NCBI GenBank assembly: GCA_029907545.1 | Contig: JARYLR010000013.1 | Span: 1-37,009, forward strand | DNA: 37,009 nucleotides | Direction of reading: 5' to 3' | DNA from: Candidatus Bathyarchaeota archaeon | GTDB lineage: Archaea; Thermoproteota; Bathyarchaeia; Bathyarchaeales; Bathycorpusculaceae | Shown: in pieces, positions 2,893 through 37,009 of the stretch | How positions within the stretch are numbered: the first letter of the stretch is position 1 | How the letters are laid out: each line of letters starts with the position of its first letter | Translations under genes and position numbers: made by a program | Notes under the pieces: model-generated | Database searches by the model: none | What the model was told of the DNA's origin: nothing | The model's input: the letters and a program-made list of their open reading frames with translations, nothing else

Positions 2893-3303
2893 ATGGTGAA
2901 AATAGATGGAGTCGAAGTGAAGGAAGGATTTTACTACAGTAAGGACTTTGAGTGGCTGAAGGTTGAAGGGGACAAGGTGCGCGTAGGAGTAACTGACTAC
3001 GCTCAAAAACAGCTTCGCGAAATCGTCTATGCTGAGCTACCGGGACCTGGAACAGCGATAACCCAGAATACGCCTTATGGCACGGTCGAGTCTGTGAAGG
3101 CGGTCTCAGATCTTGTTGCCCCAGTCAGCGGCGAAATCCTCGAGGTGAACACCGAAGTCCAATCAAAGCCAGAGCTGTTAAACGAAGACCCCTTTGGCAA
3201 GGCTTGGCTTCTGGTCGTAAAGCCAGCGAATCTGCAGGCTGAACTTGCAAACTTGATGGACTTCAACAAGGCTGTTGAGTGGCACAAAACGCTGGGAAAA
3301 TAG
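2893..3303 (+). CDS. gcvH: Glycine cleavage system H protein (lipoyl carrier)
   Basis: H protein carries the aminomethyl group on a lipoyl arm between the P, T and L proteins of the glycine cleavage system. The lipoylation motif ESVKAVSDL contains the modified lysine K69, and the family signature VGVTDYAQ-LREIVYAELP precedes it. Its 136 residues are normal for the family. The start is supported by AAAGGTGA seven bases upstream. The next gene starts 10 bp after the stop, so the two probably form an operon. No gcvP, gcvT or lipoate-ligase gene is present in the window. A non-glycine role, as known for some lipoate-binding H-like proteins, cannot be excluded. Confidence 0.92.
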   Translation: MVKIDGVEVKEGFYYSKDFEWLKVEGDKVRVGVTDYAQKQLREIVYAELPGPGTAITQNTPYGTVESVKAVSDLVAPVSGEILEVNTEVQSKPELLNEDPFGKAWLLVVKPANLQAELANLMDFNKAVEWHKTLGK

Positions 3304-3313
3304 GCGAGCATTA

Positions 3314-9315: not shown

Positions 9316-10845
9316 TTGACGGACATAGTTCTGGTATTTGAGGTTCATCAGCCTTTTCGGCTAAAACGCAATTTTTTCTGGGAAAACCAGCAGTTCAAAC
9401 GTATGAAGAAAAAACAGTTTTTTGACTACTATTGTGACCGCGCAGTAAACAGGGAAATCTTTGAAAGAGCATGCAGAAAATGCTATTTTCCCTCAAACCA
9501 AATAATACTTGAATCAATCGACAAGCACAAACGAGAGAAAAAACAAGCCAAGTTCTCATTCAGCCTCTCCGGCGTCTTCCTCGAACAGTGTGAAATGTTC
9601 AGCAAAGACCTTTTGGAAACATTCAAGCAGCTTGCCAAGACAGGATGCGTCGAGTTCCTAAGTCAAACCTACTATCACTCGCTAGCCAGCCTCTACCCAG
9701 ACAGAAGCGAATTCACCGAACAAGTGAAGCAACATCAGCAGATAATGCGTGACTTGCTTGGCTACACGCCCAATGTTTTCGAGAACACCGAGCTGCTTTA
9801 CAACAACGCCATCGCGAGAACCGTGGAAAAACTCGGGTACAAGGGAATTTTCACCGAAGGCGTAGAAAGAATATTGCATGGAAAGTCACCAAATTATCTG
9901 TATACACCAAAAGACTGCCGGAAGCTGAAGATACTTTTACGAAACTACAAGCTCACAGATGACATAGGCTTTCGTTTTTCTGCAAGATGGTGGAGCGAGT
10001 GGCCTCTGAAAGCCGACAAATACTCAAGCTGGCTTGCCGCAACGCATGGCAACTGTATAAACGTGTTTCCTGACTATGAGACCTTTGGAGAACACCATTG
10101 GCCTGAAACAGGTATCCATGATTTCTTGAGACATCTGCCAGATGAAATTCTGCGCTGGTGGCATCTGCACATGGCAACCCCCTCAGAAGTTGTCGACAAG
10201 TACGTGTCCACTGGGGAAATCGATGTTCCAGAGCTAGGTGGAACTGTTTCTTGGGCTGATTTGGAAAGGGATGCAAGCTGCTGGCTTGGGAACACTATGC
10301 AGTGGGCATACTACACAAACGTAAGGAGGCTTGAAGCGCTTGTTAAAGAGAACGGAGACAAAGAGTTCCTAAAGATGTGGCGCTACTTTCAGATAAGCGA
10401 CCACCTCTACTACATGTTCACTGCCGGAGGAGGACCTGGGGAAGTTCACTCTTATTTTAGCCCCTACGGCTCGCCAATAGACGCCTTTGTAGGAGCACAG
10501 ACCGAGATTCTTGACTTCGAAAACAGAGTTAGAGCGGCATGCATCGCTGCAGATGAGCCTTTCCTCTTTTTTTCAGACGTGGGAGAAGAACACTTTACAG
10601 GCATAATAGCATGGAGCCTGAAAGGGTTCCCAGACGCGATTAAAAGGGTCAGCGTCGATTCCATCGAGTTTCACATCAAGCGGGGAGACTTAGAAAAATG
10701 GGCAGAGAAGTCTTTCAGTGATGATGCCTTGGCTAAACGCTTAAGGAAGCTGAGGCTTTCGAAACTGAAGGGAGAGCAACTTAGGCAAGCTGTAGCTAAG
10801 GTTTTCAAAGAAAGATTCGATGAACTCAAGAATCAAGCACTGTAG
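9316..10845 (+). CDS. GH57 family alpha-amylase/glucanotransferase
   Basis: This 509-residue retaining glycoside hydrolase of family GH57 is common in archaea for intracellular alpha-glucan breakdown or transfer. Conserved regions visible in order are HQP (11-13), CVEFLSQTYYHSL (about 111-123), KGIFTEGVE with E181 as the likely nucleophile, and NVFPDYETFGEHHW with D253 as the likely acid/base. There is no signal peptide, so it should act in the cytoplasm. The start is TTG at 9316, placing the HQP strand at the N-terminus as usual; GAGG lies about 10 bases upstream. In methanococci a GH57 amylase likewise lies near glycogen-synthase-like genes. Exact specificity (hydrolase, branching or 4-alpha-glucanotransferase) cannot be read from the sequence. 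Confidence 0.86.
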   Translation: MTDIVLVFEVHQPFRLKRNFFWENQQFKRMKKKQFFDYYCDRAVNREIFERACRKCYFPSNQIILESIDKHKREKKQAKFSFSLSGVFLEQCEMFSKDLLETFKQLAKTGCVEFLSQTYYHSLASLYPDRSEFTEQVKQHQQIMRDLLGYTPNVFENTELLYNNAIARTVEKLGYKGIFTEGVERILHGKSPNYLYTPKDCRKLKILLRNYKLTDDIGFRFSARWWSEWPLKADKYSSWLAATHGNCINVFPDYETFGEHHWPETGIHDFLRHLPDEILRWWHLHMATPSEVVDKYVSTGEIDVPELGGTVSWADLERDASCWLGNTMQWAYYTNVRRLEALVKENGDKEFLKMWRYFQISDHLYYMFTAGGGPGEVHSYFSPYGSPIDAFVGAQTEILDFENRVRAACIAADEPFLFFSDVGEEHFTGIIAWSLKGFPDAIKRVSVDSIEFHIKRGDLEKWAEKSFSDDALAKRLRKLRLSKLKGEQLRQAVAKVFKERFDELKNQAL

Positions 10846-10931
10846 TCCGAGCGTGCTTTTGAAAGAACATGCACACTCTTTTATAAGAAAACATATACTA
10901 AGAGCATAAAGTCATTCGACAGGTGAGTTTA

Positions 10932-11183
10932 TTGAGAGAGGAGCTTCCGCTTTCGGAAAAGATACTGCAGACACTCCATAATCTCTGCGCTACAGCTCCG
11001 GATTTAGCTAGACGAAGCGAGGAGCTGTCGCAAGTTCTTCAAATTGATCTAGGTGAGATTGAAAGGATTCTTGACAACTATAAGGCCGAGGGCTTCGCGG
11101 AAAGCTTCGTAGACAACGAGGGCAAAAAGCGCTATTATCTTACTGGTAGCGGGATAATAAAAGTCTGTGGGCTTTTCACGTAG
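10932..11183 (+). CDS. Small winged-helix DNA-binding protein
   Basis: This 83-residue protein has a helix-turn-helix plus wing pattern: helix KILQTLHNLCATA, helix-turn-helix LARRSEELSQVLQIDLGEIERILDNYKAEGF, then the wing strands AESFVDNEGKKRYYLTG. I chose TTG 10932 because AGGTGA lies exactly five bases before it; GTG 10923 is an in-frame alternative three codons earlier but would overlap that Shine-Dalgarno. It sits 10 bp before the half glycosyltransferase gene, probably in the same transcript. It could be a local regulator of glucan genes. That role is inferred from position only. Confidence 0.65.
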   Translation: MREELPLSEKILQTLHNLCATAPDLARRSEELSQVLQIDLGEIERILDNYKAEGFAESFVDNEGKKRYYLTGSGIIKVCGLFT

Positions 11184-11193
11184 TGAATAAACG

Positions 11194-11820
11194 ATGCTTG
11201 TGGTAATCTTTTCGTGGGAATACCCGCCAAGAGTTGTCGGACAGCTCGCCGAACACGTGAAGACGCTTGCTGTGGAGCTTGTGAAGAACAAAGTAAAGAC
11301 TTACGTGGTTACTTATCATGATTATTTAACTGGAGGGCATGATGACAAGGACGGAACAAGAACAGTTCGCGTGAGCAATCCTGTGCGTACACATATAGGT
11401 GTGCTGACATGGGTCTTAACTCTGAATCAGGAGGTCGAACGTGCAGCAGCCAACATCTATTATGCTGAAGGCAGAAACATAGATTTGATAGATGCACATG
11501 ACTGGCACTTTATTCCAGCCGCCGTGACTTTAAAGAAGGCTTTGAGCATACCGTTCATCTACTCCGTGGAAAGCTTGGAAGAGCATCGTTCCCATGGCGC
11601 AAACTATCCTTTTAACATGGCTATCAAAAGCATCGAATGGCTAGGCATGTATGAAGCCAGCCAACTTATCGTAAAATCAGAATGGATGCGTGACGAAGTA
11701 ATACGCGTCTACAAGGTTCCTTCAGAAAAAATAAGGGTGATCCCGCCGAAAACTTCGCAATGGATCAAAAACTCCTTGGAAGTCTATCAAAAAGCCAGCG
11801 GAGGCGCGGTTGTCGGTTGA
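11194..11820 (+). CDS. Stand-alone N-terminal half of a glycogen-synthase-like GT-B protein
   Basis: The 208 residues correspond only to the N-terminal Rossmann domain of a GT5-like synthase: VIFSWEYPPRVVGQLAEHV at the start, IDAHDWHFIPAAV in the middle, and SEKIRVIPP at the end. That last block is where the inter-domain NGVD linker and the C-terminal nucleotide-binding domain should follow. The sugar-nucleotide GG loop is changed to GQ, and the HSTE motif of the neighbours is SVESLEE here, so it is unlikely to be catalytic alone. The stop overlaps the start of the following full-length paralogue (TTGA). There are no frameshifts or stops inside it, so it looks like a maintained short protein rather than debris. 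It could pair with or regulate the neighbouring synthase. Confidence 0.75.
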   Translation: MLVVIFSWEYPPRVVGQLAEHVKTLAVELVKNKVKTYVVTYHDYLTGGHDDKDGTRTVRVSNPVRTHIGVLTWVLTLNQEVERAAANIYYAEGRNIDLIDAHDWHFIPAAVTLKKALSIPFIYSVESLEEHRSHGANYPFNMAIKSIEWLGMYEASQLIVKSEWMRDEVIRVYKVPSEKIRVIPPKTSQWIKNSLEVYQKASGGAVVG

Positions 11821-13025
11821 GCCGAGAATTGCGTGTGATCATGCTTTCTTGGGAATTCCCGCCGAGAATTATCGGAGGAATCTCGCCCCATGTCTATTTC
11901 TTGTCAAGAAGTCTAGCTAAAAACGGTGTTAAGGTTTACGTGGTAACCTGTGACTTTCCAGGTGCGCCACAACACGAGAATGTTGATGGCGTTGAGGTTT
12001 ATCGTGTGGATTCTTACAAGAATCCGTCGCCTGACTTTGCGACTTGGGTTTATTTGATGAATGTGAACATGCAGAAGGAAATCGCGGCGCTTGTGAGAAG
12101 CTTAGGCGGCGGAGTTGACATTTTTCATGCACATGACTGGCTTGTGGCTACTGCCGGAGTAGGGCTTAAACATGTTTTCCGCAAGCCTCTTTTGGCAACT
12201 GTGCACTCAACCGAAATCGGAAGAAGAAACGGCATTCATTTTGACTATGAGAGGATGATTCACGAAACAGAGGCATGGCTGACATATGAAGCGTGGAAAG
12301 TGATATGCTGTAGCGATTATATGGTTTCGCATGTGCAGTGGGCTTTCGGCCTCCCCCGTGACAAGGTAGTCATGATTCCCAACGGCGTCAACGTAGATGT
12401 GTACACAAAAAGTGTGCATGGCGACATGTCGCTGTTCAGAAGTAGATTTGCCCTGAAAGAGGAGAAGATCGTGCTTTTCGTTGGAAGGCTGGTCTACGAG
12501 AAAGGCGCACATGTTCTAGTTAACGCAGTCCCGAAAGTGCTGGAGAAGGTCAACGCCAAATTTATAATTGTCGGAAACGGCTACATGAAAGATCAACTCT
12601 CGGCACTTGTTAGAAACATGGGCTTAAGCCACAAGGTTATGTTCACGGGATTTGTGGACGACGAGACACTTAGAGCTCTGCAGAAATGTGCCGATGTGTC
12701 GGTTGTGCCCTCACTTTTCGAGCCTTTCGGAATTGTCGCCCTCGAAGCCATGGCAGCAAAAAGTCCGCTTGTGATTTCAGACAGTGGAGGCTTGTCAGAG
12801 ATCGTTGAACACGACGTAAACGGCGTTAAAGTCTATCCTGGTAATCCTGAATCGCTTGCATGGGGAATAACTAGAGTGCTTACAGATGATGGATATGCAA
12901 ATTGGATAAGGAAGAATGCGTATGAACGGGTTCGAGAAAAATACGATTGGGACAAAATAGCACAGCAAACCAAGGACACCTACAACGGGGTCTTAGGCGA
13001 GTATTCAAAAAGCTTCTGGGCGTGA
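11817..13025 (+). CDS. Full-length GT-B glycosyltransferase, glycogen synthase-like
   Basis: The protein has 402 residues with both GT-B domains. The N-terminal domain has VIMLSWEFPPRIIGGISPHV (GG loop intact), FHAHDWLVATAGV and TVHSTEIGRRNG. The C-terminal domain starts after VMIPNGVNVDVY and contains VLFVGRLVYEKGAHVLV and EPFGIVALE (E-x7-E). It is a paralogue of the 7085-8389 protein. I took TTG 11817 as the start because it overlaps the upstream stop as TTGA, a style repeated in this genome, and GGAGG lies about 12 bases upstream; GTG 11835 and ATG 11841 are alternatives. It is predicted to add glucose to alpha-glucan or a related acceptor. Confidence 0.82.
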   Translation: MSRELRVIMLSWEFPPRIIGGISPHVYFLSRSLAKNGVKVYVVTCDFPGAPQHENVDGVEVYRVDSYKNPSPDFATWVYLMNVNMQKEIAALVRSLGGGVDIFHAHDWLVATAGVGLKHVFRKPLLATVHSTEIGRRNGIHFDYERMIHETEAWLTYEAWKVICCSDYMVSHVQWAFGLPRDKVVMIPNGVNVDVYTKSVHGDMSLFRSRFALKEEKIVLFVGRLVYEKGAHVLVNAVPKVLEKVNAKFIIVGNGYMKDQLSALVRNMGLSHKVMFTGFVDDETLRALQKCADVSVVPSLFEPFGIVALEAMAAKSPLVISDSGGLSEIVEHDVNGVKVYPGNPESLAWGITRVLTDDGYANWIRKNAYERVREKYDWDKIAQQTKDTYNGVLGEYSKSFWA

Positions 13026-26498: not shown

Positions 26499-26997
26499 GT
26501 TTGATACACCATCTTTCAGAGACGGGGAGACGAGTTATCCAATTTAGATTGCGGAAGGTTAAAACACTTGTGTAGCTTAAGAAACTGAAGACAGCGAAAT
26601 AGGAGAAACAGTTACCGTCACGTTCAGAAACCTCTATCGCCAGATTGCCAAAAAACAAAAGCAAGTTCCTATACTCCTCATCGTATTTTCCTAGAAGTGA
26701 AACCCAGCCATAGTCTCACGAATCCACCATAATTTTTTACATCTCCAATTAGCTGGAAAGGTTCTCCAAACAACGGGTTATAATAAGACTATATATGATG
26801 CCCAGGAAAGTTTATCTCACGTAAGAAAGCCTCTTCTGCTTAACCAGTCTATATCTAAACCTATTGCACGTGTTCAGCCTAGTTTGCATTTTTCAGCCTA
26901 ACTTGTTCTCATAATTGATATAAGGCAATTACCTTCTATAATGCAAACCATTAAGCAGCATCATAGCCATAACATGTATCGATGTCAAGGTGAAGTA
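26499..26997. other. Long intergenic region without a gene
   Basis: These 499 bases separate the divergent apgM and ATP-grasp genes. I find no convincing coding frame on either strand. Near the right end are a pair of direct repeats, a TATA-like element TTGATATAAGG (26915-26925) and the ribosome site AAGGTGA (26987-26993) of the ATP-grasp gene. The left two thirds are AT-rich and show nothing I can name. Confidence 0.6.
26873..26900. promoter_or_regulatory. Direct repeat ahead of the ATP-grasp promoter, candidate operator
   Basis: TTCAGCCTA occurs at 26873-26881 and again at 26892-26900, a 19-bp offset or nearly two DNA turns. Over 15 bp the copies match at 12 positions. They end 15 bp before the TATA-like box at 26915. 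This is the usual place for an archaeal activator or repressor site. The role is inferred. Confidence 0.35.
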
Positions 26998-28071
26998 ATG
27001 AAGCGCATCTTAACCACAGGTGCAGGAGGCCCAGCGGGCATAAACTTTGTAGCTTCGCTAAAGATCGCACCTGAAAAACTGTTCATCGTAGGAACGGAAG
27101 CCAACAATCATTTCCTTCACCTAATTCCAACAACCAAAAAACATCTAATCCCGAAGGCAACCGACTCCAACTACATCGATGCACTCAACGAGATAACAAG
27201 AAAGGAGAAAATCGAATTTCTCCACCCACAGACAGACGCAGAAGTCGAAGTTGTTTCAGAAAAACGCGAAAAAATCGACGCCAACCTGTTTCTTCCATCA
27301 AAAAAGGCTGTTGCTGCATGCCAAGACAAACTGGAGGCTACAAGACTATGGAAGAAAAAAAACGTTTCAGCCGCAAGGTTCATTGAGACAAACGATAAAT
27401 CAGACATCAAAAAGGCGTTTGAAGAGTTCGGAAGCCCAATATGGGTCAGAGCCACACATGGCGCAGGCGGAATAGGAAGCACACCAGCCGACAACTTGGA
27501 AACAGCCGTCTCATGGATCAACTACTGGAAAGCCCGACACGTAAACTGGAAGTTCATAGCACAAGAGCATCTGCCAGGAAGAAACCTGGCATTTCATAGC
27601 CTTTGGAAAAATGGTGAACTGGTCACGTCGATGGCTCGAGAGAGACTTGAATACATTTATCCACATCTGGCCCCTTCAGGAGTCACCGGCACCCCAGCCG
27701 TCCAAAGAACAATTCATGACGAAAAGGTCAACCGCGTTGGCGTAGATGCTGTGCTGGCAATTGATCCAAGGTTTAGCGGAATTGCATGCGTGGACATGAA
27801 GGAAACCGAAAAAGGCGAGCCGTGCGTGACAGAGATTAATGCCGCAAGAATGTTCACGACATCATACTTCTTTTCCTACGCAAGCAAAATCCTTCGAAAA
27901 GACTACTATGCGAACATTCCATACCTATACGTGAAACTAGGCTACAATGAGAAAATCCCAGACCTTCCGAAGTACAACATCCTTCCAAAGAACGTCTACT
28001 GGATCCGCCATATGGATGCACCGGCTAAACTGGTCAAAAATGGAAAAATTGTCGGAGAGATGTACCGTTGA
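26998..28071 (+). CDS. ATP-grasp carboxylate-amine ligase-like protein
   Basis: The protein has 357 residues. The N-terminal pre-ATP-grasp domain begins MKRILTTGAGGPAGINFVASL. The ATP-grasp core has the nucleotide lysine/arginine region SPIWVRATHGAGGIGSTPADN, the hinge WKFIAQEHLPGRNLAF, and the metal ligands in IACVDMKETEKGEPCVTEINAAR (D and E/N). It resembles carbamoyl-phosphate-synthase-like ligases that join a carboxylate to an amine. ATG 26998 has AAGGTGA four bases upstream; an upstream in-frame ATG at 26941 has no such site. It overlaps the following HAD gene (TTGA), the first link of a three-gene coupled set. The substrate is unknown, possibly a surface sugar or peptide precursor. Confidence 0.8.
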   Translation: MKRILTTGAGGPAGINFVASLKIAPEKLFIVGTEANNHFLHLIPTTKKHLIPKATDSNYIDALNEITRKEKIEFLHPQTDAEVEVVSEKREKIDANLFLPSKKAVAACQDKLEATRLWKKKNVSAARFIETNDKSDIKKAFEEFGSPIWVRATHGAGGIGSTPADNLETAVSWINYWKARHVNWKFIAQEHLPGRNLAFHSLWKNGELVTSMARERLEYIYPHLAPSGVTGTPAVQRTIHDEKVNRVGVDAVLAIDPRFSGIACVDMKETEKGEPCVTEINAARMFTTSYFFSYASKILRKDYYANIPYLYVKLGYNEKIPDLPKYNILPKNVYWIRHMDAPAKLVKNGKIVGEMYR

Positions 28072-28562
28072 CCGAGGCAGTCATCTTCGACCTTGACGGC
28101 ACACTGATTAACCTTCCAATCAACTATGAGAAACTCTTCAAGGAGGTTAGAGAGATTCTGAATATGAATAATGTGAGACCTTTCTTGAAAACAGTTTCCC
28201 AAACCAGAGGCAGAAAAAGAGCCATGATCTTCAAAGCGTGGGAAGAAGCCGAGCTCGAAGCGCTACCCAAAGTAACCCTTAATCCTAAGGGGAAGGTAAT
28301 ATACGAAGAATATCGCAAAAAACCTAAGGCACTCGTAACCATGCAGAGCAGAAAATTCTTAGAAGCCTTTCTCCGACAGTTCGGGCTAGTCTTCAAAGGC
28401 GTAGTCACAAGAGAAGACAGCATGAACAGGGTCAAACAACTCGAGATAGCTAGGAAGACCTTGGGGCTGAAGTTTGCAGACATCTTGTTCGTAGGAAACA
28501 AGGAATACGATTTAGTTGCAGCCGAAAAGGTTAAATGTAGGTTTCAGTGGGTTGGCGAATGA
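28068..28562 (+). CDS. HAD-superfamily hydrolase
   Basis: The protein has 164 residues. Motif I is VIFDLDGTLINL with the nucleophile Asp at position 8. Motif II is probably ALVTMQS. A lysine (RVKQLEIA) stands for motif III. Motif IV is ILFVGNKEYDLVAA, where the usual first Asp after VG is Asn. It is short for a phosphatase, with a small helical cap. The TTG start at 28068 overlaps the ATP-grasp stop and its own stop overlaps the next start (ATGA). It may dephosphorylate the product or precursor made by its coupled neighbours. Weakened motif IV leaves activity uncertain. Confidence 0.75.
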   Translation: MTEAVIFDLDGTLINLPINYEKLFKEVREILNMNNVRPFLKTVSQTRGRKRAMIFKAWEEAELEALPKVTLNPKGKVIYEEYRKKPKALVTMQSRKFLEAFLRQFGLVFKGVVTREDSMNRVKQLEIARKTLGLKFADILFVGNKEYDLVAAEKVKCRFQWVGE

Positions 28563-29548
28563 AAATCTGGTATGACGCGCTTACAGGAAAACACTTGAGA
28601 TACGCGGTAGCAGTCGCAGAAAGACTTCAAGCATCAAAACATGAGGTAGTGCTTACAACAAGAAAACACCCTGACACGTTGCCACTAGCATCTTTTCTAA
28701 ACAGGCAATTCATAGTTATTGGGCAATATGATCCGCGGTCGCTCTTAACGAGAACAGAAGAGGGTGCACGGCGACAGCTGGCGTTCTGCAAACTCTTCAA
28801 GAAAGAGGCCCCAGACATAGCCATCTCCCACGGCTCTGTCGACATGTGCAGAACCGCGTTTGGGCTTGGAAAACCAATAATCACGACAATAGACACTCCC
28901 TATGCGGAGGCCGTGCACAGGCTTACGCTTCCATTGTCATCACATATCGTTGCTTCGGTAGCGATCCCGAAAAGAATACTTGGCACTTACAATGTTAGAG
29001 CGGAGATCACATGTTTCGCCGGCGTAGATGAAGTCGCATGGATCAAAAATTTCAAACCCTCCGTAAAATACGACTACGGTAAACCGCTTATCGGGGTGAG
29101 GCAATTTGAAGAAAAAGCTGCATACAGCAGAGAAAGCGTAAACATGCTTCAGTTGGCTAGAAATCTCACGCGTTTAGGCACCGTGGTTTTCCTCTCAAGA
29201 TATAAACGAAAAGCAGTAAAAGACATAATCGTTCCCAAAGAATTCATAGACTCTGCAAGCCTAGCTTCGCAAGCCGATCTGATCGTAGGCGTCGGAGGAA
29301 CTATCACTCGAGAGGCAGCCCTTCAAGGCACTCCGGCAATAATCGTAGAGGCTCTTCCAAAACAGCATGTAAACGACTTTCTCATAAGAAAAGGGTTTCC
29401 AATCTTCAAGACAAAGCCGTCATCAACATTAAGCTTAGCTAAAAAAATATTAGGAAAAAAATACGACGTAAAGCACTTGTTAGATCAGCTTGAAAACCCC
29501 GTAGATGCCATCAAAAATATCGTGAACAAGATGAGCAGAAGCTATTGA
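28559..29548 (+). CDS. DUF354 family protein (GT-B-like fold)
   Basis: The protein has 329 residues. It opens with MKIWYDALTGKHLRYAVAVAERL and includes PDIAISHGSVDMCRTAFGLGKPIITTIDTPYAEAV, then IVGVGGTITREAALQGTPAII near the end. This pattern marks DUF354, an archaeal group related to UDP-GlcNAc 2-epimerase and MurG-like GT-B proteins, which often sits in surface polysaccharide loci. ATG 28559 overlaps the HAD stop as ATGA. Its stop overlaps the stop of the convergent acyltransferase gene (29542-29548). The function is not known. Binding of a nucleotide sugar is likely from the fold. Confidence 0.8.
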   Translation: MKIWYDALTGKHLRYAVAVAERLQASKHEVVLTTRKHPDTLPLASFLNRQFIVIGQYDPRSLLTRTEEGARRQLAFCKLFKKEAPDIAISHGSVDMCRTAFGLGKPIITTIDTPYAEAVHRLTLPLSSHIVASVAIPKRILGTYNVRAEITCFAGVDEVAWIKNFKPSVKYDYGKPLIGVRQFEEKAAYSRESVNMLQLARNLTRLGTVVFLSRYKRKAVKDIIVPKEFIDSASLASQADLIVGVGGTITREAALQGTPAIIVEALPKQHVNDFLIRKGFPIFKTKPSSTLSLAKKILGKKYDVKHLLDQLENPVDAIKNIVNKMSRSY

Positions 29549-30054
29549 CTTTTGCCTTTTCTCGTTTCCAAGAAACTTTTTCTTTTTGCCTCGTATTCCT
29601 CTCTCGTCATCATTTTCCTAGCAGGAACACCCTTCACCACAGTATTAGGCGGCACATCCTTGGTCACTACACTTCCAGCAGCCACAATCGAGTTTTTTCC
29701 AACAGTCACATTCGGCAATATTGTGACACATCCTCCGATAACTACGTTGTCCTCAATAATTGATGGAGTAAGGCATCGGCTGTGCGGAAAGCGATCATTC
29801 AGCAGGCTGCTGTTGGGACCTACAAAGACGTTATTGCCGAGTCTGCACTTGTTCGAAATGGTAACATGTGCCTGAACAATGCAGTTGCTTCCTATTTTCA
29901 CGTCTCTGCCGATGTCGCAAAAGCTGCCTATCCGAGTTCCATTTCCAATCTTCGCGTTCTCGCCGATAACAACATAATTCCAAACTACCACATCTTTGCC
30001 AAACTGAGCGCTTTTACCGACCAGAACTCCTTTTCCAAGTTTAGGCTCTGACAC
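29542..30054 (-). CDS. Hexapeptide-repeat sugar acyltransferase
   Basis: The protein has 170 residues. Repeats of the form (I/V/L)-G-x-x-x-x run from residue 8 to about 135 (for example VWNYVVIGENAKIGNGT, IGSNCIVQAHVTIS, VVIGGCVTILPNVTVGKN), forming a left-handed beta helix. The tail PPNTVVKGVPARKM is the usual capping motif of the WlbB/WbbJ group, which N- or O-acylates nucleotide sugars. The active-site region is NDRFPHSRC. The GTG start at 30054 has GAGGAGG nine bases upstream. It is divergent from the dehydrogenase-like gene at 30144 and very probably belongs to the same surface-sugar locus. The acyl donor would be acetyl-CoA by family knowledge. Confidence 0.86.
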   Translation of the reverse strand: MSEPKLGKGVLVGKSAQFGKDVVVWNYVVIGENAKIGNGTRIGSFCDIGRDVKIGSNCIVQAHVTISNKCRLGNNVFVGPNSSLLNDRFPHSRCLTPSIIEDNVVIGGCVTILPNVTVGKNSIVAAGSVVTKDVPPNTVVKGVPARKMMTREEYEAKRKSFLETRKGKSQ

Positions 30055-30143
30055 TAGTGAAAACCTCCTCGTCTACACATTGTAATATATACGCTTTAAA
30101 TAGTTTGGCAGTTTATCTATTCCCCGAAAAAAGAGGAAGTGCT

Positions 30144-31004
30144 GTGACCAAAGAAGCAGTTCTGATAGTTGGGCTAGGTGAAGTAGGTCGCCCTCTCTAC
30201 GAAATCCTAAAAGCAAGCGGAAAATTCACTGTCTATGGTTTTGATTTGTCAACGGAAAAAATGCAGGCACTCGGACAGACACGGCTTCCAAATAAGCCTG
30301 CTGACATAATGCACATTTGCATCCCGTGCTCTAGCCAGACAGATTTTATAGAGGCCGCCGAAAGCTATGTACGAAAGCATAAGCCTAAACTTGTAATCAT
30401 CAACAGTACTGTTGTACCTGGAACCACTATGATGCTGCACGAAAGAGCCAACTGTCTAGTGGCACACTCACCTGTACGAGGAGTACACAAAAGCTTAGAA
30501 CATATGAAAAGAGAGCTAGAGAACTGGACAAAGTATATAGGTGGCGCCACTGAAAAAGCGGGAAAAGCGGCGCAACTGCACTTCAAGAAAGCTGGCTTCA
30601 AAACCAAGGTTCTAAAAAGCTGCAGAGAAACCGAGTTGGCTAAGCTTTTTGAAACCACCTACAGGGCATGGATGATCTCGTGTTTTCACGAAATGCACAG
30701 AATCAGCAGACACTTTGGCGCTGACTTCGATCAAGTAGTCGATTTTCTTGATGATACACACCGCACGCTGCTCAATAGACCAGTGATGTTTCCTGACGTA
30801 ATAGGCGGACATTGTCTGATACCGAACACTAGGTTACTTTTGAAATCTTATGATTCAGAGTTCCTTCGTTTGATTCTGGAGTCAAATGAGAAACGCAAGG
30901 AGGACGTCAGAAACAGAGAGGTTGTGAGAGAAATCGAGAAGGTCAAGAAACGGGTGGAAGATTTTGAGAGAAAACGCGAACGCGAAAACAAAGCCCTTTT
31001 TTAG
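30144..31004 (+). CDS. Truncated UDP-glucose/GDP-mannose dehydrogenase-like protein
   Basis: The protein has 286 residues. The NAD-binding Rossmann domain has VLIVGLGEVGRPLYEIL and IMHICIPC. The central helical domain has CRETELAKLFETTYRAWMISCFHEM, like the WecC/UGD family. Then comes the catalytic-cysteine motif IGGHCLIPNTRLL (C224). The family's C-terminal UDP-binding Rossmann domain (about 120 residues) is missing and replaced by a charged coiled-coil-like tail (about 250-286). GTG 30144 has GAGG seven bases upstream; the longer frame to 30057 crosses the divergent promoter region. It may oxidise a sugar or sugar acid not held as a nucleotide, or may have lost activity. Confidence 0.72.
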   Translation: MTKEAVLIVGLGEVGRPLYEILKASGKFTVYGFDLSTEKMQALGQTRLPNKPADIMHICIPCSSQTDFIEAAESYVRKHKPKLVIINSTVVPGTTMMLHERANCLVAHSPVRGVHKSLEHMKRELENWTKYIGGATEKAGKAAQLHFKKAGFKTKVLKSCRETELAKLFETTYRAWMISCFHEMHRISRHFGADFDQVVDFLDDTHRTLLNRPVMFPDVIGGHCLIPNTRLLLKSYDSEFLRLILESNEKRKEDVRNREVVREIEKVKKRVEDFERKRERENKALF

Positions 31005-31098: not shown

Positions 31099-32226
31099 AT
31101 GACAGTGAAGCCAATGCGGATATGTTACCTAGCAAACGCGGCAAGCGTACACACCGTTCGATGGGTCAGATATTTCATTGAAAAAGGCCATGAAGTCCAC
31201 ATCGTTTCCTTCGAAGAAGCACATGTAAAAGGCGCAATCATGCATATCCTGAAACTTCCGGTTCTTGTTAAAAACGCTACATTCGCTCTAAAGCTTGCAC
31301 TCGTTTTCCAGATCTACATACTGCTCAGAAAAATCAAGCCAGACATCGTTCACGCGCACTATGTAACCAACTATGGGCTCTTCGGCGCGCTCAGTAACTA
31401 CAAACCTTTTGTGCTAACCGCATGGGGCTCAGACATTCTTACTGTGCCAGGCGAACGTTTTCTCTCAAATATAAAGAGACTCATATCTAAGTTTGTTCTA
31501 AGTCAGACAGACTTGGTGACCTGCGATGCAGAGCACATGAAAATTGCCTTGAACCAGTTAGGAGTGCAGAAAAATAAGATTGTTTTAATCTTTTTTGGAG
31601 TAGATACTAAGAAGTTTTGTCCCAGACAAAAAAGTGATGTTCTTGAGAAAAAGTTTGGGATTCGAGATGTGTTTGTTGTGATAAGTTTGAGAAATCTTGA
31701 ACCACTGTACGACATCGAATCCCTAGTAAGGTCAGTACCTATCGTTTTAAAAGAGGTTCCGAAATCCAAGTTTATTATAGCGGGAAGAGGTTCTGAAGAA
31801 CAGCGATTAAAAAAACTGGCGGAGTCTCTGGGCGTTTTAAAGAACGTGAACTTTATAGGGTTCGTGCCCAACGACGAGCTTCCACAGTACCTGAACAGCG
31901 TTGATGTTTATGTTTCAACTTCACTCTCAGACGCAGGAATCGCAGCAAGCACCGCGGAAGCCATGGCCTGTGGACTGCCCGTGATCGTCACCGATGTGGC
32001 AGACAACAGGAAATGGGTTACAGATGGAGAAAACGGCTTTGTGGTACCTAGAAAGGCTCCTGAGATACTTGCCGAAAAGATTATCTATTTATTGAAAAAC
32101 GAGCACATAAGAAAGCGCTTCGGCGAAGCTAACAGGCACGTGATAGAAGAAAGAAATAACTACTATAGAGAGATGGAAAAAATGGAAACTCTTTACGCAG
32201 AACTAATTCGGAGACGCAGAAAATGA
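31099..32226 (+). CDS. GT4-family glycosyltransferase
   Basis: The protein has 375 residues in two GT-B domains. The N-terminal acceptor domain starts MRICYLANAASVHTVRWVRYF and contains PDIVHAHYVTNYGLFGAL. The C-terminal donor domain has IFFGVDTKKF, then VISLRNLEPLYDIESLV, KFIIAGRGSEEQRL and SDAGIAASTAEAMACGLPVIVTD. In the E-x7-E motif the first Glu is Asp. ATG 31099 fits a TATA box 26 bp upstream; ATG 31114 is an alternative. It likely transfers a sugar during surface glycan or glycolipid synthesis at the inner face of the membrane. Its stop overlaps the epimerase start (ATGA). Confidence 0.85.
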   Translation: MTVKPMRICYLANAASVHTVRWVRYFIEKGHEVHIVSFEEAHVKGAIMHILKLPVLVKNATFALKLALVFQIYILLRKIKPDIVHAHYVTNYGLFGALSNYKPFVLTAWGSDILTVPGERFLSNIKRLISKFVLSQTDLVTCDAEHMKIALNQLGVQKNKIVLIFFGVDTKKFCPRQKSDVLEKKFGIRDVFVVISLRNLEPLYDIESLVRSVPIVLKEVPKSKFIIAGRGSEEQRLKKLAESLGVLKNVNFIGFVPNDELPQYLNSVDVYVSTSLSDAGIAASTAEAMACGLPVIVTDVADNRKWVTDGENGFVVPRKAPEILAEKIIYLLKNEHIRKRFGEANRHVIEERNNYYREMEKMETLYAELIRRRRK

Positions 32227-33185
32227 GGATGCTCATAACCGGCGGCGCCGGCTTCATTGGAAGTTACCTGTGTGAGAAATACACGAAAGAAGGACACACC
32301 GTGCTTTGCTTAGACAATTTTCTAAGCGGCAACCTACTTAATGTGAGACATCTTCTTCGTTACCGGAACTATAAGCTCATAAAAGGAGACATCCGAGACT
32401 ACAACCTTCTGGAAAGAATCATCCACGAAGTTGACGTAGTTTTCCACTTAGCAGCACAAATCCACGTTGATAGATCTCATGTCGAACCTAAACTGACTTA
32501 TGAAGTAAACGTCATGGGAACTCAAAACATTTTGGAAGCCGCAAGAATATATGACGTGAAGAAAGTGATACATGCTTCTACTAGCGAGGTCTACGGTTCA
32601 GCCCAGTACGTGCCTATCGACGAGAAACATCCTCTAGACGCACCTCACCCCTATGGAGCAAGCAAGATCGCTGCAGACAGAATGTGCTTTGCATATGTCC
32701 AAACATACGGAATGGACGTTTCCATCCCCAGATTCTTCAACATTTTCGGTCCCCGCCAAAGAGACATAGGCTACGGTGGCGTGATTTCAATATTTACAAG
32801 GCGAGTTCTAAATGATATACCCCCCGTGATCTATGGAGATGGAAAGCAGACCAGAGATTACACGTACATAGAGGACGCGGTTCGAGCCTTCGACCTTGTT
32901 CTAAACCATGAATCAAGACTTGCCCCCACGAACATTGGCACAGGCAAAGAAGTAAGCATTCTTGATCTTGCCAACATGATTATTGAGATCTGCGGCAAAA
33001 AAGACAAGATCCAGCCAGTTCATGTCGACCAAAGGATGGGTGAAGTCAAACAGCTCATTGCAGACGCCACAAGAGCGGAGAAAATTCTCAAATGGAAACC
33101 CAAGTATAACCTGAGAGAGGGGCTTAAGCAGTTCATTCAATGGTACAAGAACTACGGCCAAGAGGAAAGAATAAAACTTGAATAA
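32223..33185 (+). CDS. NAD-dependent sugar epimerase/dehydratase
   Basis: This 320-residue extended SDR has the NAD motif ITGGAGFIGSYL (5-16), LDNFLSGN, FHLAAQIHVDRSHVEP, ASTSEVYGSA with the active Ser/Thr, YGASKIAADR with catalytic Tyr and Lys, and NIFGPRQRDIGYGGVI for substrate binding. The sequence sits between UDP-glucose 4-epimerase and NDP-hexose 4,6-dehydratase groups. It would change the configuration or oxidation at C4 of a nucleotide sugar. Its 3' end overlaps the E1 alpha start by eight bases. With the DegT aminotransferase downstream a 4-keto sugar intermediate is plausible. Confidence 0.88.
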   Translation: MRMLITGGAGFIGSYLCEKYTKEGHTVLCLDNFLSGNLLNVRHLLRYRNYKLIKGDIRDYNLLERIIHEVDVVFHLAAQIHVDRSHVEPKLTYEVNVMGTQNILEAARIYDVKKVIHASTSEVYGSAQYVPIDEKHPLDAPHPYGASKIAADRMCFAYVQTYGMDVSIPRFFNIFGPRQRDIGYGGVISIFTRRVLNDIPPVIYGDGKQTRDYTYIEDAVRAFDLVLNHESRLAPTNIGTGKEVSILDLANMIIEICGKKDKIQPVHVDQRMGEVKQLIADATRAEKILKWKPKYNLREGLKQFIQWYKNYGQEERIKLE

Positions 33186-34179
33186 GAAAGAACAGAAACC
33201 GCTTTCGCTCGACCTGCCCAGAGAACTTTTACGCAAAATGTACACCACGATGGTGACTATACGGATATTTGAGGAAAGAGTTGCCTCGCTTATCGCCCCA
33301 AAAAAGGAAATCACAACACCATGCCACCTCTACATTGGGCAGGAATCCGTTGCCACAGGAGTCTGTATGGCGCTGAAAAAAGAGGACTACGTCTACAGCA
33401 CGCACCGATCCCACGGGCACTACATTGCCAAAGGGGGAGACCTAAAGCGGCTTATGGCGGAACTCTACTGCAAAAAAACAGGCTGCTCCAGAGGCAAAGG
33501 AGGCTCAATGCACATAGCCGCACCGGAGATCGGTTTGCCTGGGAGCTCTGCAATTGTCGGGGGAACCATACCGATCTCGGTTGGCACTGCCCTAGCGTTT
33601 TCCATCCAGAGTAGAGATAATGTGTCTGTTGCCTTCTTCGGCGATGGAGCAGCCCACGAAGGAGTCTTCTACGAATCCTTGAACTTTGCATCTTTGAAAA
33701 AACTTCCTGTGGTTTTTGTCTGCGAAAACAACCTCTACTGCACACATCTTCCAATAACCTCATGTCTAGCAGACCCAGAGATCTACAAGAAGGCTCAAAT
33801 CTTCCACATGCCGGGAGTCAGAATCGATGGAAATGACGTGGTAAAAGTCTACAAGACCACGCGCAAAGCAGTGGAGGACGCACGCAGGGGCAAGGGACCA
33901 ACCCTGATAGAGTGCTTAACTTACAGGTGGCTTGGACATGTTGGACCGTCTGATGATCTAGACAAGGGGTTGAGAAGCAAAGAAGAATTGGACTGCTGGG
34001 TGAAAAAGTGCCCTATTAGGAGAATGAAAAAGACGCTTTTGAAACATGGGATTATCACGGAAAATGAGATAGACAAGATTGAAACGAAGATCAGAGCTGA
34101 AGTGGAAGAAGCAGTTGCCTTCGCAAGAAGCAGCCCTTACCCAGACGAAAGTGACCTTCTCTACGGCATATTTAGTTAG
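33178..34179 (+). CDS. TPP-dependent dehydrogenase E1 component, alpha subunit (acetoin/pyruvate type)
   Basis: The protein has 333 residues. It contains YIGQESVATGV, STHRSHGHYIAKG (HRSHGH 76-81), SRGKGGSMHI, and the thiamine diphosphate motif GDGAAHEGVFYESLN...CENN (GDG 155-157, NN 184-185). These match the E1 alpha of acetoin and pyruvate dehydrogenases, which decarboxylate a 2-keto acid and pass the two-carbon unit on. The start is TTG 33178, overlapping the upstream gene. E1 beta follows after a methyltransferase gene. No E2, E3 or lipoylation gene is nearby, and all flanking genes modify sugars, so the acceptor is probably not lipoamide. Confidence 0.9.
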   Translation: MNKKEQKPLSLDLPRELLRKMYTTMVTIRIFEERVASLIAPKKEITTPCHLYIGQESVATGVCMALKKEDYVYSTHRSHGHYIAKGGDLKRLMAELYCKKTGCSRGKGGSMHIAAPEIGLPGSSAIVGGTIPISVGTALAFSIQSRDNVSVAFFGDGAAHEGVFYESLNFASLKKLPVVFVCENNLYCTHLPITSCLADPEIYKKAQIFHMPGVRIDGNDVVKVYKTTRKAVEDARRGKGPTLIECLTYRWLGHVGPSDDLDKGLRSKEELDCWVKKCPIRRMKKTLLKHGIITENEIDKIETKIRAEVEEAVAFARSSPYPDESDLLYGIFS

Positions 34180-34190
34180 GTCGGTGATGT

Positions 34191-34868
34191 TTGAACCATC
34201 TAGTCGTACTCTACCATCGGGCGCGGTCGCTTCTTAGTTCTCTGCTAGGCACGAGATTCAACGAACTAGTCTGGAGATTTCGCCACATCTACCGAAGAGG
34301 CTGGGCGGAAGGATTAACCACTTCAGCCTCACATCCTCATCGAAAACTGCTTGCGGAAAAAATTGCCTTCCATGCGCCTTTCACAGATGTTCTGGAGATA
34401 GGCTGCGCAACAGGACCTAACCTTTACGTGCTGGCGAGAAAATTTCCAAACGCCCGATACGTCGGCATTGACATAAACCCGAATGCCATAAAACATGGAA
34501 AAATGTTCTTCGAGAGAGAAAAAATACGTAATGTGTCGCTTTTAACTAGGAAAGCTGATGCGTTAAGATTTCCAGACAAAAGCTTCGATATAGTCTTCAC
34601 TGACGCGGTGTTAATGTATATTGGTCCGGATAAAATCATGCGGGTGACAGAAGAAATCCAGAGAGTTGCTAGAAAAGCGATAGTATTGGTTGAGCATCAT
34701 TCTGAGGAAGAAAGCCCTATAGGAGTGAATAGGGGAAAGTGGTGGCTAAGAAACTACGTGAAGCTGTTTCAGCCATACACCAGAGAAGCACAATGCACTA
34801 AAATAACCTCTGACGTATGGGGTGGAAACTGGAGCCAGTTTGGGTATATCATTGAAATGGAAAAGTGA
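34191..34868 (+). CDS. SAM-dependent methyltransferase
   Basis: The protein has 225 residues. The class I methyltransferase fold is shown by motif I VLEIGCATGPNLYVLA, the acidic loop YVGIDINPNAI, motif II ADALRFPDKSFDIVFTDAVLMYI and the following helix. There is a basic N-terminal extension of about 55 residues (RARSLLSSLLGTRFNELVWRFRH) that may bind a membrane or partner. The TTG start at 34191 has GGTGATG close upstream. It lies between the two E1 subunit genes, and its stop overlaps the E1 beta start (GTGA), so all three are translated together. It could methylate a sugar or the branch added by E1. Confidence 0.82.
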   Translation: MNHLVVLYHRARSLLSSLLGTRFNELVWRFRHIYRRGWAEGLTTSASHPHRKLLAEKIAFHAPFTDVLEIGCATGPNLYVLARKFPNARYVGIDINPNAIKHGKMFFEREKIRNVSLLTRKADALRFPDKSFDIVFTDAVLMYIGPDKIMRVTEEIQRVARKAIVLVEHHSEEESPIGVNRGKWWLRNYVKLFQPYTREAQCTKITSDVWGGNWSQFGYIIEMEK

Positions 34869-35860
34869 AAAATATGCGCACCATAAGCTTTGCCAAAGCC
34901 ATCAACGAAGCACTACACCAGATAATAGCCACAGATAAGCAGGCATTTCTGATCGGGCAAGGAATCACAAGCCCATGGTATGTTGGAACCACAACAGTCG
35001 GCTTAATCGGCAGATTTGGCCCAAAAAGAGTCATCGACACGCCAACATCAGAAAACTGCATTACAGGCGTAGCTCTAGGTGCAGCGCTTGCAGGAATGCA
35101 TCCTATCATATGTTTTCCTAGAATGGATTTTATGTACCTCGCCATGGATCAGCTTGCAAACCACATGGCCAACTGGTGCTACATGTTCGGCGGACAGCTT
35201 AACGTACCTATGGTTGTCTGGGCAATAATTAACCGAGGCGGAGAACAAGCAGCCCAGCATTCTCAAGCTTTACAAGCAGTTTTTAGCCATATCCCAGGAG
35301 TCAAAGTTGTCATGCCAAGCACGCCTTACGATGCTAAGGGACTGCTGATTGCAAGCGTGCAGGACGGCAACCCTGTTGTTTATATTGATGATCGTTGGCT
35401 ATATGAAAAAGAGGGCCATGTCCCAGAGGAACACTATTCCGTTCCTATCGGAAAAGGCGTTGTGAGAAGAGAAGGCAAAGACATAACGGTGGTTGCCACC
35501 TCCTACCTGGTGCACGAAGCGCTAAAAGCAGCCGATAATCTTTCCAACGTAGGTATAGATGTGGAAATTGTTGATCTGCTTTCAGTTAAGCCATTAGACG
35601 AGAAGCTTCTGTTTAAGTCAGTTGAAAAAACAAACAGATTAGTGGTTGTAGACGGCGGCTGGATACACTTTGGATTAGCTGCCGAGATTGCTGCACGCGT
35701 CTCGGAAACATGTCTTTTCAAACTGCTTAAAGCGCCCGTCATGCGGGTGGCGTTACCGAATGCTCCAGCCCCAGCCAGCTCTGCTCTAGAAAAGGTTTAT
35801 TATCCGAATGCTGGGAGCATAGTTTCAGCTGTCAAAAAAAGTTTGGAGAAGCGAAATTGA
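34865..35860 (+). CDS. TPP-dependent dehydrogenase E1 component, beta subunit
   Basis: The protein has 331 residues. It aligns by eye with E1 beta of pyruvate/acetoin dehydrogenases: ISFAKAINEALHQ, RVIDTPTSENCITGVALGAALAG (E63 is the glutamate that activates thiamine), ANWCYMFGGQLNVPMVV, EQAAQHSQALQAVFSHIPG and PSTPYDAKGLL, then the C-terminal transketolase domain (ITVVATSYLVHEAL, VDLLSVKPLDEK). The usual FLIGED near residue 30 is FLIGQG. The GTG start at 34865 overlaps the methyltransferase stop; ATG 34874 is possible. Its own stop overlaps the DegT start. It pairs with the E1 alpha at 33178. Confidence 0.9.
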   Translation: MKNMRTISFAKAINEALHQIIATDKQAFLIGQGITSPWYVGTTTVGLIGRFGPKRVIDTPTSENCITGVALGAALAGMHPIICFPRMDFMYLAMDQLANHMANWCYMFGGQLNVPMVVWAIINRGGEQAAQHSQALQAVFSHIPGVKVVMPSTPYDAKGLLIASVQDGNPVVYIDDRWLYEKEGHVPEEHYSVPIGKGVVRREGKDITVVATSYLVHEALKAADNLSNVGIDVEIVDLLSVKPLDEKLLFKSVEKTNRLVVVDGGWIHFGLAAEIAARVSETCLFKLLKAPVMRVALPNAPAPASSALEKVYYPNAGSIVSAVKKSLEKRN

Positions 35861-36969
35861 AGTATAAGGTTCCGTTTGTGAATTACCCTGAGCACTACAG
35901 GCGAATCTGGAATGAAGTGATAAGTGCTATCTCAAACGCGTTGTCCAAGGGAGATCTGATTCTCCGTGATGATGTCAAGCAGTTCGAGCGAAACATGGCT
36001 GACTTTATAGGAGTTAAACATGCAATTGGACTTAACAGCGGCACAGACGCCCTTTACATATCGCTTAAAGCTGTAGGAATAGAAGCGGGAGACGAAGTAA
36101 TCACGGTCGCCCACACTTTTGTAGCAACAATCGCCACTATCGTCCAATGCGGGGCCAAGCCTATACTGGTTGACATAGGCGAAGACATGAACATGAATGT
36201 AGACGAAGTGGAAAGCAAGATTAACACTAAGACTAAGGCAATAATTCCTGTAGATTTAAATGGACGTCTATGCAACATGGAAAAACTGATGAAAATCGCT
36301 AAAAAACATGACGTACTCATCATAGAGGATTCGGCTCAGGCTTTAGGAGCAATGTTTGACGGAAAAAAAGCAGGCGCCTTCGGACTAACCGGATGTTTTA
36401 GCTTTTATCCCGCAAAAATTCTTGGAGCAGCTGGAGACGCAGGATTGCTGACGACAGATGATGACAAGATCGCGGAAAAAGTATATCTCCTAAGAGATCA
36501 TGGCGTTCAAAGATCCACAGGTGAAACGCTCTTCTACGGAATCAACAGTCGGCTTGACAACGTTCAGGCTGCAATACTGAACGTAAAATTTAGATATCTA
36601 AATAAATGGATAGAACGCCGGCGAAAGCTGGCACAGCTCTACCACCGACGCTTGTCAAACATACCTGATCTCAAACTTCCGCCGCCTCCAAGCAATAACG
36701 GTCATTTCTACGATGTCTACCAGAACTACGTGATAAGATCCAAGAAGCGCGATCAACTGGTCACTCACCTCAGAGAATCCGGTGTGGAGGTTTTGATTTC
36801 TTGGCCAAAACCTCTCCAACATCACAAGGCTCTTGGTCTAAGCAGATTTCACCTACCTACGACAGAGCAGGTTTCAAATGAAGTTCTCTCGTTACCCATG
36901 TACCCCGAATTAAGAGAAGAAGATGTGAACTACGTGGCAGACGTAATCCAAGATTTCTACGACAGATAA
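35857..36969 (+). CDS. DegT/DnrJ/EryC1-family sugar aminotransferase
   Basis: The protein has 370 residues. This PLP enzyme transfers an amino group from glutamate to a keto sugar nucleotide. Motifs are LNSGTDALYISLKAVGI, VAHTFVATIATI, IIEDSAQALGA and CFSFYPAKILGAAGDAG with the PLP lysine K187. RLDNVQAAIL and YQNYVIRS follow, with the family's normal end YPELREEDVNYVADVI. The region VDLNGR replaces the common VHLYGQ. The TTG start at 35857 overlaps the E1 beta stop as TTGA. It is the last gene in the window; the operon may go on beyond 37009. Confidence 0.9.
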   Translation: MKYKVPFVNYPEHYRRIWNEVISAISNALSKGDLILRDDVKQFERNMADFIGVKHAIGLNSGTDALYISLKAVGIEAGDEVITVAHTFVATIATIVQCGAKPILVDIGEDMNMNVDEVESKINTKTKAIIPVDLNGRLCNMEKLMKIAKKHDVLIIEDSAQALGAMFDGKKAGAFGLTGCFSFYPAKILGAAGDAGLLTTDDDKIAEKVYLLRDHGVQRSTGETLFYGINSRLDNVQAAILNVKFRYLNKWIERRRKLAQLYHRRLSNIPDLKLPPPPSNNGHFYDVYQNYVIRSKKRDQLVTHLRESGVEVLISWPKPLQHHKALGLSRFHLPTTEQVSNEVLSLPMYPELREEDVNYVADVIQDFYDR

Positions 36970-37009
36970 AAGCAGCTCATAGAGGAAAAACCTGAAAATG
37001 AGAAAAGAA

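Follow-up and report, generated by a model that had tools for sequence, protein, structure and literature searches.

The stretch of DNA analyzed here, referred to as the window, is an entire contig of 37,009 bases (G000:C4) from a metagenome-assembled genome (MAG) of the Thermoproteota (G000; Bathyarchaeia, 1.46 Mb, 97% complete). Near its end lies an operon of six genes coding for a glycosyltransferase of family GT4, a short-chain dehydrogenase/reductase (SDR), the alpha and beta subunits of an E1-like enzyme dependent on thiamine diphosphate (ThDP), a methyltransferase and a DegT aminotransferase. It is a well-supported inference that this E1 pair works independently of an E2 component within a conserved archaeal sugar module. 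Beyond this, we consider it rather probable that the pair is a carboligase, which would transfer a pyruvate-derived two-carbon unit onto a keto sugar linked to a nucleoside diphosphate (NDP) in a module for surface sugars.

E1 subunits without an E2 partner

No E2-like open reading frame (ORF) was found anywhere in the window. Since the contig stops 40 bases past the DegT gene, the operon may continue, and the downstream side was read in G001 (Candidatus Bathyarchaeota isolate QZM_B1_bin_37_1), a sister genome of the same genus. Here the order of the six genes is unchanged, and downstream of them lie genes for a glycosyltransferase, an NDP-sugar dehydrogenase-like protein and a polytopic flippase-like protein without Pfam match; E2 or E3 genes were not found beyond the operon end. 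As judged from G001, the lack of E2 and E3 genes near the pair, which an earlier sequence-only reading of the window had described, extends past the contig end, so that the finding just beyond position 37,009 which would have spoken against that reading did not come about. An E2 gene that is merely missing because of the contig end was rejected on the same ground. A GcvH-like lipoyl-bearing ORF is located at 2893-3303, 30 kb away from the operon, and overlaps an ORF for a CoA-disulfide-reductase-like flavoprotein (3275-4660).

The genome has a canonical pyruvate dehydrogenase (PDH) set of its own. E1-alpha, E1-beta and a lipoyl-bearing E2 are encoded in a row in a separate operon on another contig (G000:C23), and the same arrangement was present in G001 (C50). 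G000 carries two E1_dh genes and one E2, which belongs to the C23 pair; the single E2 of G001 likewise lies inside its separate E1-E2 operon. Three further genomes carry the pair: G004 from a different genus of the same family (95% complete), and G375 and G268 from another, distant family of the Thermoproteota (85% and 98% complete). An E2 of family PF00198 was not found anywhere in these three genomes, which is the strongest evidence that the pair does not feed lipoamide. In the loci compared, an E2 or lipoyl-domain gene was near the E1 pair in 19 of 22 PDH-type cases and in 0 of 13 cases of the clade described below.

In a tree of the concatenated subunits, the five archaeal pairs grouped with those of Solidesulfovibrio and Azospirillum and with two Streptomyces pairs (loci L067 and L074) in one clade with a support of 100/100. 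The comparison set consisted of 41 other rows, nearly all of PDH type and including the C23 paralogue. The same clade was obtained with each single subunit (SH-aLRT 99 for both) and persisted after two more Azospirillum rows had been added (11 clade rows). The order inside the clade is unsure because the bacterial end branches are long. A recent duplicate of the genome's own PDH E1 was rejected based on the separate clade; the identity between the window pair and its C23 paralogue was 46-48%. The close homologues are not parts of PDH, and the objection that they might form a standard dehydrogenase complex, raised in the sequence-only reading itself, was not borne out.

The catalytic residues are conserved. 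The E1-alpha keeps the GDG...ENN motif for ThDP and the histidine of the outer loop. Glu63 and His132 of E1-beta correspond to the catalytic Glu59 and to His128 in the Geobacillus enzyme, respectively, both invariant in all rows of the alignment, so the thiamine motifs are intact as previously noted. Differences were found around them. Phe82 of Geobacillus is among the side chains nesting the catalytic His128 (PMC2663715); at this position the window E1-beta carries Arg86, and arginine was present in 11 of 11 clade rows and in 0 of 41 PDH-type rows, all of which have F, Y, W or M. The otherwise invariant glutamate at position 32 (Geobacillus Glu28) was replaced by glutamine in 8 of 11 clade rows. 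All 11 clade rows share the E1-alpha signature Pro48, Tyr82, Glu161 and Phe170 and have lost Trp174. Moreover, the outer-loop segment of E1-alpha comprises 10-11 residues in the clade (11 in the window) compared to 8-9 in 41 of 42 PDH-type rows; the inner and outer loops of E1 engage the lipoyl domain (PMC2663715). Thus, the site retains the equipment for decarboxylation and has been rebuilt at the entry of the second substrate.

These observations bear on whether the pair might be a second, specialised E1 of a lipoyl-dependent complex, which borrows the E2 and E3 of the genome in trans and supplies acyl-CoA for sugar acylation. An E2 is indeed present in G000 and G001, encoded on another contig, and the ThDP residues as well as the catalytic histidine of E1-beta and the outer-loop histidine of E1-alpha are kept. 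However, the orthologous pair occurs in three genomes without any E2, it belongs to a separate clade, and its lipoyl-gating outer loop is 2-3 residues longer. A further point is weak when taken alone. Position 285 of the Geobacillus E1-beta is a glutamate, which we take to be an acidic E2-docking residue, and all five archaeal members have a lysine there (Lys289). PDH-type rows carry D or E in 34 of 41 cases but K or R in 7 of 41, and Lys289 was therefore rejected as proof of lost E2 docking; it fits such a loss without being specific for it. Altogether we regard a borrowed E2 as very improbable.

The operon and its conservation in archaea

The six ORFs described in the sequence-only reading were recovered at the same positions (Table 1). 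Protein families were assigned by Pfam profiles with their cut-offs and by NCBIfam equivalogs as a second set, and all six families scored far above the Pfam cut-off.

Table 1. Genes of the six-gene operon and of its upstream context in the window
Feature	Position	Strand	Matches and remarks
GT4 glycosyltransferase, first gene of the module	31099..32226	+	PF00534 3.5e-38, PF13477 2e-30; 131 bits
SDR, NDP-sugar 4,6-dehydratase-like (LegB/RmlB/GMD kind)	32223..33185	+	PF16363 (GDP_Man_Dehyd) 5e-78, 263 bits
E1-alpha-like ThDP subunit, E2-less clade	33178..34179	+	PF00676 (E1_dh) 9.8e-76, 255 bits
Class I S-adenosylmethionine-dependent methyltransferase	34191..34868	+	PF13649 3.1e-18, 67 bits
E1-beta-like ThDP subunit, E2-less clade	34865..35860	+	PF02780 (Transketolase_C) 1.7e-36, PF02779 (Transket_pyr) 9.4e-27; 125/94 bits
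DegT/DnrJ/EryC1/StrS aminotransferase, pyridoxal phosphate-dependent	35857..36969	+	PF01041 6.8e-106, 355 bits; cofactor-binding lysine in FSFYPAK
Nucleotide-sugar dehydrogenase-like gene, upstream context	30057..31004	+	PF00984 1.2e-10
Hexapeptide acyltransferase (WbpD-like by eye), context	29542..30054	-	Homologue near the module in all four relatives

The junctions are as tight as previously described, with overlaps of four bases between GT4 and SDR (ATGA), methyltransferase and E1-beta (GTGA) and E1-beta and DegT (TTGA), and a gap of 11 bases between E1-alpha and methyltransferase. Only the overlap of SDR and E1-alpha had to be corrected to eight instead of four bases, the E1-alpha start being TTG. 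The string is operon-like, intact and not due to chance, since four further genomes contain these genes as well.

In total, the module of GT4, SDR, E1-alpha, E1-beta, DegT and methyltransferase was kept in five archaeal genomes of two families. The genes are arranged in just this order in G004, G375 and G268, where both E1 genes are adjacent and the methyltransferase gene follows DegT. A methyltransferase gene between the E1 genes was found in the window's genus only. The split pair of the sequence-only reading is thus correct for the window but local to one genus, and it was rejected as a functional trait.

The SDR was the most conserved protein of the module, with 98, 84, 75 and 71% identity to the window in G001, G004, G375 and G268, respectively. 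In the same genomes the values were 91, 71, 63 and 66% for E1-beta, 90, 72, 63 and 63% for E1-alpha, 92, 69, 56 and 54% for DegT, 91, 67, 52 and 47% for GT4 and 86, 38, 41 and 42% for the methyltransferase.

The surroundings of the module point to glycan synthesis. In G375 it is located within ~5 kb of genes for an ALG7-type GlcNAc-1-phosphate transferase (PF00953), Alg14 (PF08660) and an Alg13-like protein (PF04101), and the same set was identified near the module of G268 by sequence reading. As these genes represent the start of the lipid-linked chitobiose N-glycan pathway, there is good support for a function of the G375 and G268 modules in surface or N-glycans, and such a function is likely for that of the window. 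The proposal of the sequence-only reading that the two-carbon unit is given to a sugar and not to lipoamide therefore gained from the E2 independence, the distinct clade, the linkage to sugar genes and the N-glycan locus in two relatives, while the methyltransferase-split arrangement turned out to be a local rearrangement.

The distribution of the pair is patchy. Among 257 genomes of the class, an E1 with at least 70% identity was present only in G000, G001 and G004, all others reaching at most 51%; of 398 genomes sampled from the phylum, only G000, G004, G375 and G268 reached at least 63%, with 49% as the next value. Within the family of G268, 2 of 22 genomes are carriers. This suggests horizontal spread or frequent loss. 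A scan of genome contigs yielded four loci, namely G001, one Actinobacteria MAG and two Paenibacillus sugar-catabolism operons including an E2. In these two (L045, 9989-16566; L046, 10061-16877) E1-alpha and E1-beta are separated by gluconolactonase-like and SDR genes with the E2 downstream, so separation of the E1 genes occurs in E2-coupled sugar-catabolism operons as well. No related loci were found among the viral contigs searched, and a phage collection contained only distant matches of acetoin-dehydrogenase or transketolase type (~32-40%).

Several other features were observed. The dehydrogenase-like gene upstream of the operon shares 88% identity with its counterpart in G001, has no orthologue by the module in G375 or G268 and is conserved in G001 only. 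The acyltransferase showed identities of 93, 64, 41 and 37% in G001, G004, G375 and G268. At 26941-28562 an ATP-grasp protein with a borderline PylC-like match in its N-terminal part overlaps a HAD-type ORF and is followed by a DUF354 glycosyltransferase-like gene (28547-29548); it may join an amino acid or a similar group to the glycan. In locus L041 (8136-10142; G026:C23) E1-alpha and E1-beta are fused in one ORF of 668 amino acids. It adjoins an SDR gene and a gene resembling myo-inositol-phosphate synthase, and the contig of 15 kb contains no E2. Fused E1 ORFs of ~670 amino acids were present in several other Thermoproteota matches.

Bacterial relatives and known branching enzymes

Two-subunit E1-like ThDP enzymes named aKADH2 transfer the two-carbon unit of pyruvate onto sugars of bacterial antibiotics that carry a keto group at C3 or C4, and ketone ligation by KbDH was demonstrated in vitro (PMC12247030). 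In kibdelomycin the ketone of the branch is subsequently transaminated, while elsewhere it is reduced, methylated or oxidised (PMC12247030); kibdelomycin contains amycolose, a 3-(alpha-aminoethyl) sugar (PMC10055692). The group includes AviB1/AviB2 of avilamycin, Pau11/Pau12 of paulomycin, which were listed as homologues of the former (PMC4425429), the aldgamycin enzymes and KbDH. They share with the window pair the combination of E1-alpha and E1-beta, the lack of E2 and the location among sugar genes. However, they belong to antibiotic clusters, whereas the window pair is part of an archaeal operon, likely for surface or N-glycans, and is tied to a GT4, a 4,6-dehydratase-like SDR, a DegT and a methyltransferase.

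In the literature searched, with most subscription journals outside its coverage, nothing specific was found on an archaeal branched-chain sugar pathway or an E1-DegT glycan pathway. Within these limits an archaeal pathway of this form is undescribed, as the sequence-only reading had supposed, but the chemistry is of a known bacterial kind, and the precedents of avilamycin, paulomycin, aldgamycin and kibdelomycin had been missed there.

Other enzyme types were compared as well. PDH E1 from Geobacillus stearothermophilus, human and the own C23 operon has the fold, the ThDP motif and the catalytic glutamate and histidine in common with the window pair but differs in the presence of an E2, the residue at Geobacillus Phe82, the length of the lipoyl-gate loop and the position in the trees. 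A split-chain transketolase was rejected, since the NCBIfam models for PDH E1-alpha and E1-beta gave 347 and 316 bits compared to 34 and 87 for transketolase. YerE performs ThDP-dependent two-carbon branching of a CDP-keto-deoxy sugar to yersiniose A of bacterial O-antigen (PMC12247030). It is described as a single-chain flavoprotein of the decarboxylase (AHAS-like) superfamily, and an enzyme of this type was ruled out by the architecture of E1_dh plus Transket_pyr/Transketolase_C on two chains.

Searches of plasmids identified four bacterial members of the clade in glycan-type gene sets. The cluster on Solidesulfovibrio magneticus pDMC1 contains E1-alpha, E1-beta, GDP-L-fucose synthase, DegT, an epimerase, a nucleotidyltransferase, a kinase and GT2 glycosyltransferases; a plasmid of Azospirillum thermophilum carries E1-alpha, E1-beta, DegT and an oxidoreductase; and the pairs of A. 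lipoferum 4B and A. oryzae lie in glycan-type clusters on plasmids, that of A. oryzae including GT4s and a second DegT gene. In all four, DegT is located beside the pair or one gene away, with SDRs and often glycosyltransferases. They resemble the window in the clade (support 100), the signature residues, the lack of E2 and the SDR genes nearby, but some of the clusters differ by neighbors of heptose-type kinase, SIS and HAD type. No described product was found for these E1-DegT clusters. The loci of Solidesulfovibrio (L068, 5091-17984) and A. oryzae (L118, 3723-16078) share E1-alpha, E1-beta, DegT, SDR, radical SAM, NUDIX and sugar kinase genes, possibly representing a common bacterial surface-sugar pathway.

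The best non-orthologous match of the window E1-beta was that of Solidesulfovibrio (51%), ahead of archaeal PDH (at most 47%). The bacterial DegT and SDR proteins are only 27-29% similar to the archaeal ones (27-28% for DegT), so that E1 and DegT were probably paired, or their pairing rearranged, on more than one occasion. This speaks for carboligation and transamination being functionally linked.

Several points weigh against a sugar carboligase. In plain identity the window E1-alpha is slightly closer to archaeal PDH (~50%), the glycan E1s of bacteria reaching 40-46%, although it groups with the latter in the tree. The likeness to AviB1/B2, Pau11/12 and KbDH is one of description, with the two Streptomyces plasmid pairs inside the clade as stand-ins at the sequence level. 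The SDR belongs to a broad family of epimerases, dehydratases and decarboxylases and stayed below every equivalog cut-off; its best NCBIfam match was TIGR04180 LegB with 240 bits (cut-off 475). The motif TSEVYG...YGASK read in its sequence is 4,6-dehydratase-like, although a motif of the TSE...YxxxK type occurs in UXS-type decarboxylases as well. Finally, the Streptomyces pairs (L067, 14025-16071; L074, ~9958-12032) are parts of biosynthetic clusters that have no clear sugar genes, which suggests that membership in the clade indicates carboligation without E2 and not sugars in particular. These clusters encode a condensation domain, a ketosynthase and an acyl carrier protein, as well as a P450 and an AMP ligase, and their E1 pairs are possibly acyloin-forming enzymes of natural products.

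The archaeal pair could accordingly be an acyloin synthase that works without E2 on an acceptor of non-sugar or open-chain type, namely an aldehyde or ketone such as a sugar phosphate, whose deoxyketose-like or acyloin product would be aminated by DegT and then built into the glycan. The Streptomyces members would agree with this, and so would the heptose-type kinase, SIS and HAD genes of the bacterial glycan clusters, where extension of a sugar-phosphate chain is conceivable. However, all five archaea place the pair right after a nucleotide-sugar SDR and before a sugar-type DegT, with a GT4 in the operon, which favors a nucleotide-sugar acceptor. An acceptor other than a nucleotide sugar is thus unlikely, though it is the strongest competitor.

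The predicted sugar and its meaning

For the carboligase acting on a nucleotide sugar, a route can be proposed in which each step has one gene of the module and the order of steps follows that of the genes. The SDR would produce an NDP-4-keto-6-deoxy-sugar. The E1 pair would decarboxylate a 2-oxo acid, most likely pyruvate, to a ThDP-bound hydroxyethyl (acetyl-anion) unit and transfer this to a ketone carbon of the nucleotide sugar instead of lipoamide, giving a C-acetyl branch and a tertiary alcohol, i.e. a C-branched octose. DegT would convert the branch ketone into a 1-aminoethyl group by transamination, the methyltransferase would place a methyl group on N or O, and GT4 would attach the sugar to a surface glycan on a lipid carrier, probably the N-glycan.

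The target of DegT is a further point that may tell against this route. DegT could instead aminate another intermediate at a ketone of the ring (C3 or C4), in which case E1 and DegT would have different target carbons, or different target sugars within one glycan. The nearest solved chains of the window DegT are 7b0d (334 bits), QdtB 3frk (262), DesV 2oga (227) and WbpE 3nyu (219), of which QdtB, DesV and WbpE are C3 aminotransferases; ArnB and PseC scored 138 and 133 bits. Additionally, the clusters of G004, G375 and G268 contain further Gfo/Idh and acyltransferase genes of a diacetamido-sugar pathway. However, E1-beta and DegT genes are adjacent in all five archaea and nearly so in the four bacterial clusters in spite of the low similarity of their DegTs, which suggests that the product of E1 is the substrate of DegT, and in kibdelomycin it is the branch that is transaminated (PMC12247030). 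We therefore consider amination of a ring ketone improbable, less likely still than the acyloin synthase.

The full prediction, that some Thermoproteota carry in their N-glycans a C-branched octose with amino and methyl groups, whose 1-aminoethyl branch is formed by an E2-free PDH-type carboligase together with DegT, is put forward tentatively, with odds somewhat short of even. We know of no archaeon with a sugar of this type.

If true, no branched-chain sugar pathway of this kind would have been known in Archaea before the route to a C-branched aminoethyl octose, and this would be part of a widespread surface-sugar route of E1-alpha, E1-beta and DegT that archaea share with bacteria. An enzyme of core metabolism would then be repeatedly used without its complex for surface sugars in Archaea and Bacteria. 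For genome annotation, arginine at the Geobacillus Phe82 position of E1-beta, the longer outer loop of E1-alpha, the missing E2 and a DegT gene next door are marks by which mis-annotated 'pyruvate dehydrogenases' can be found. Where PDH is assigned solely on the basis of E1 genes, the pyruvate oxidation of these archaea is overstated, as G004, G268 and G375 carry E1 without E2.

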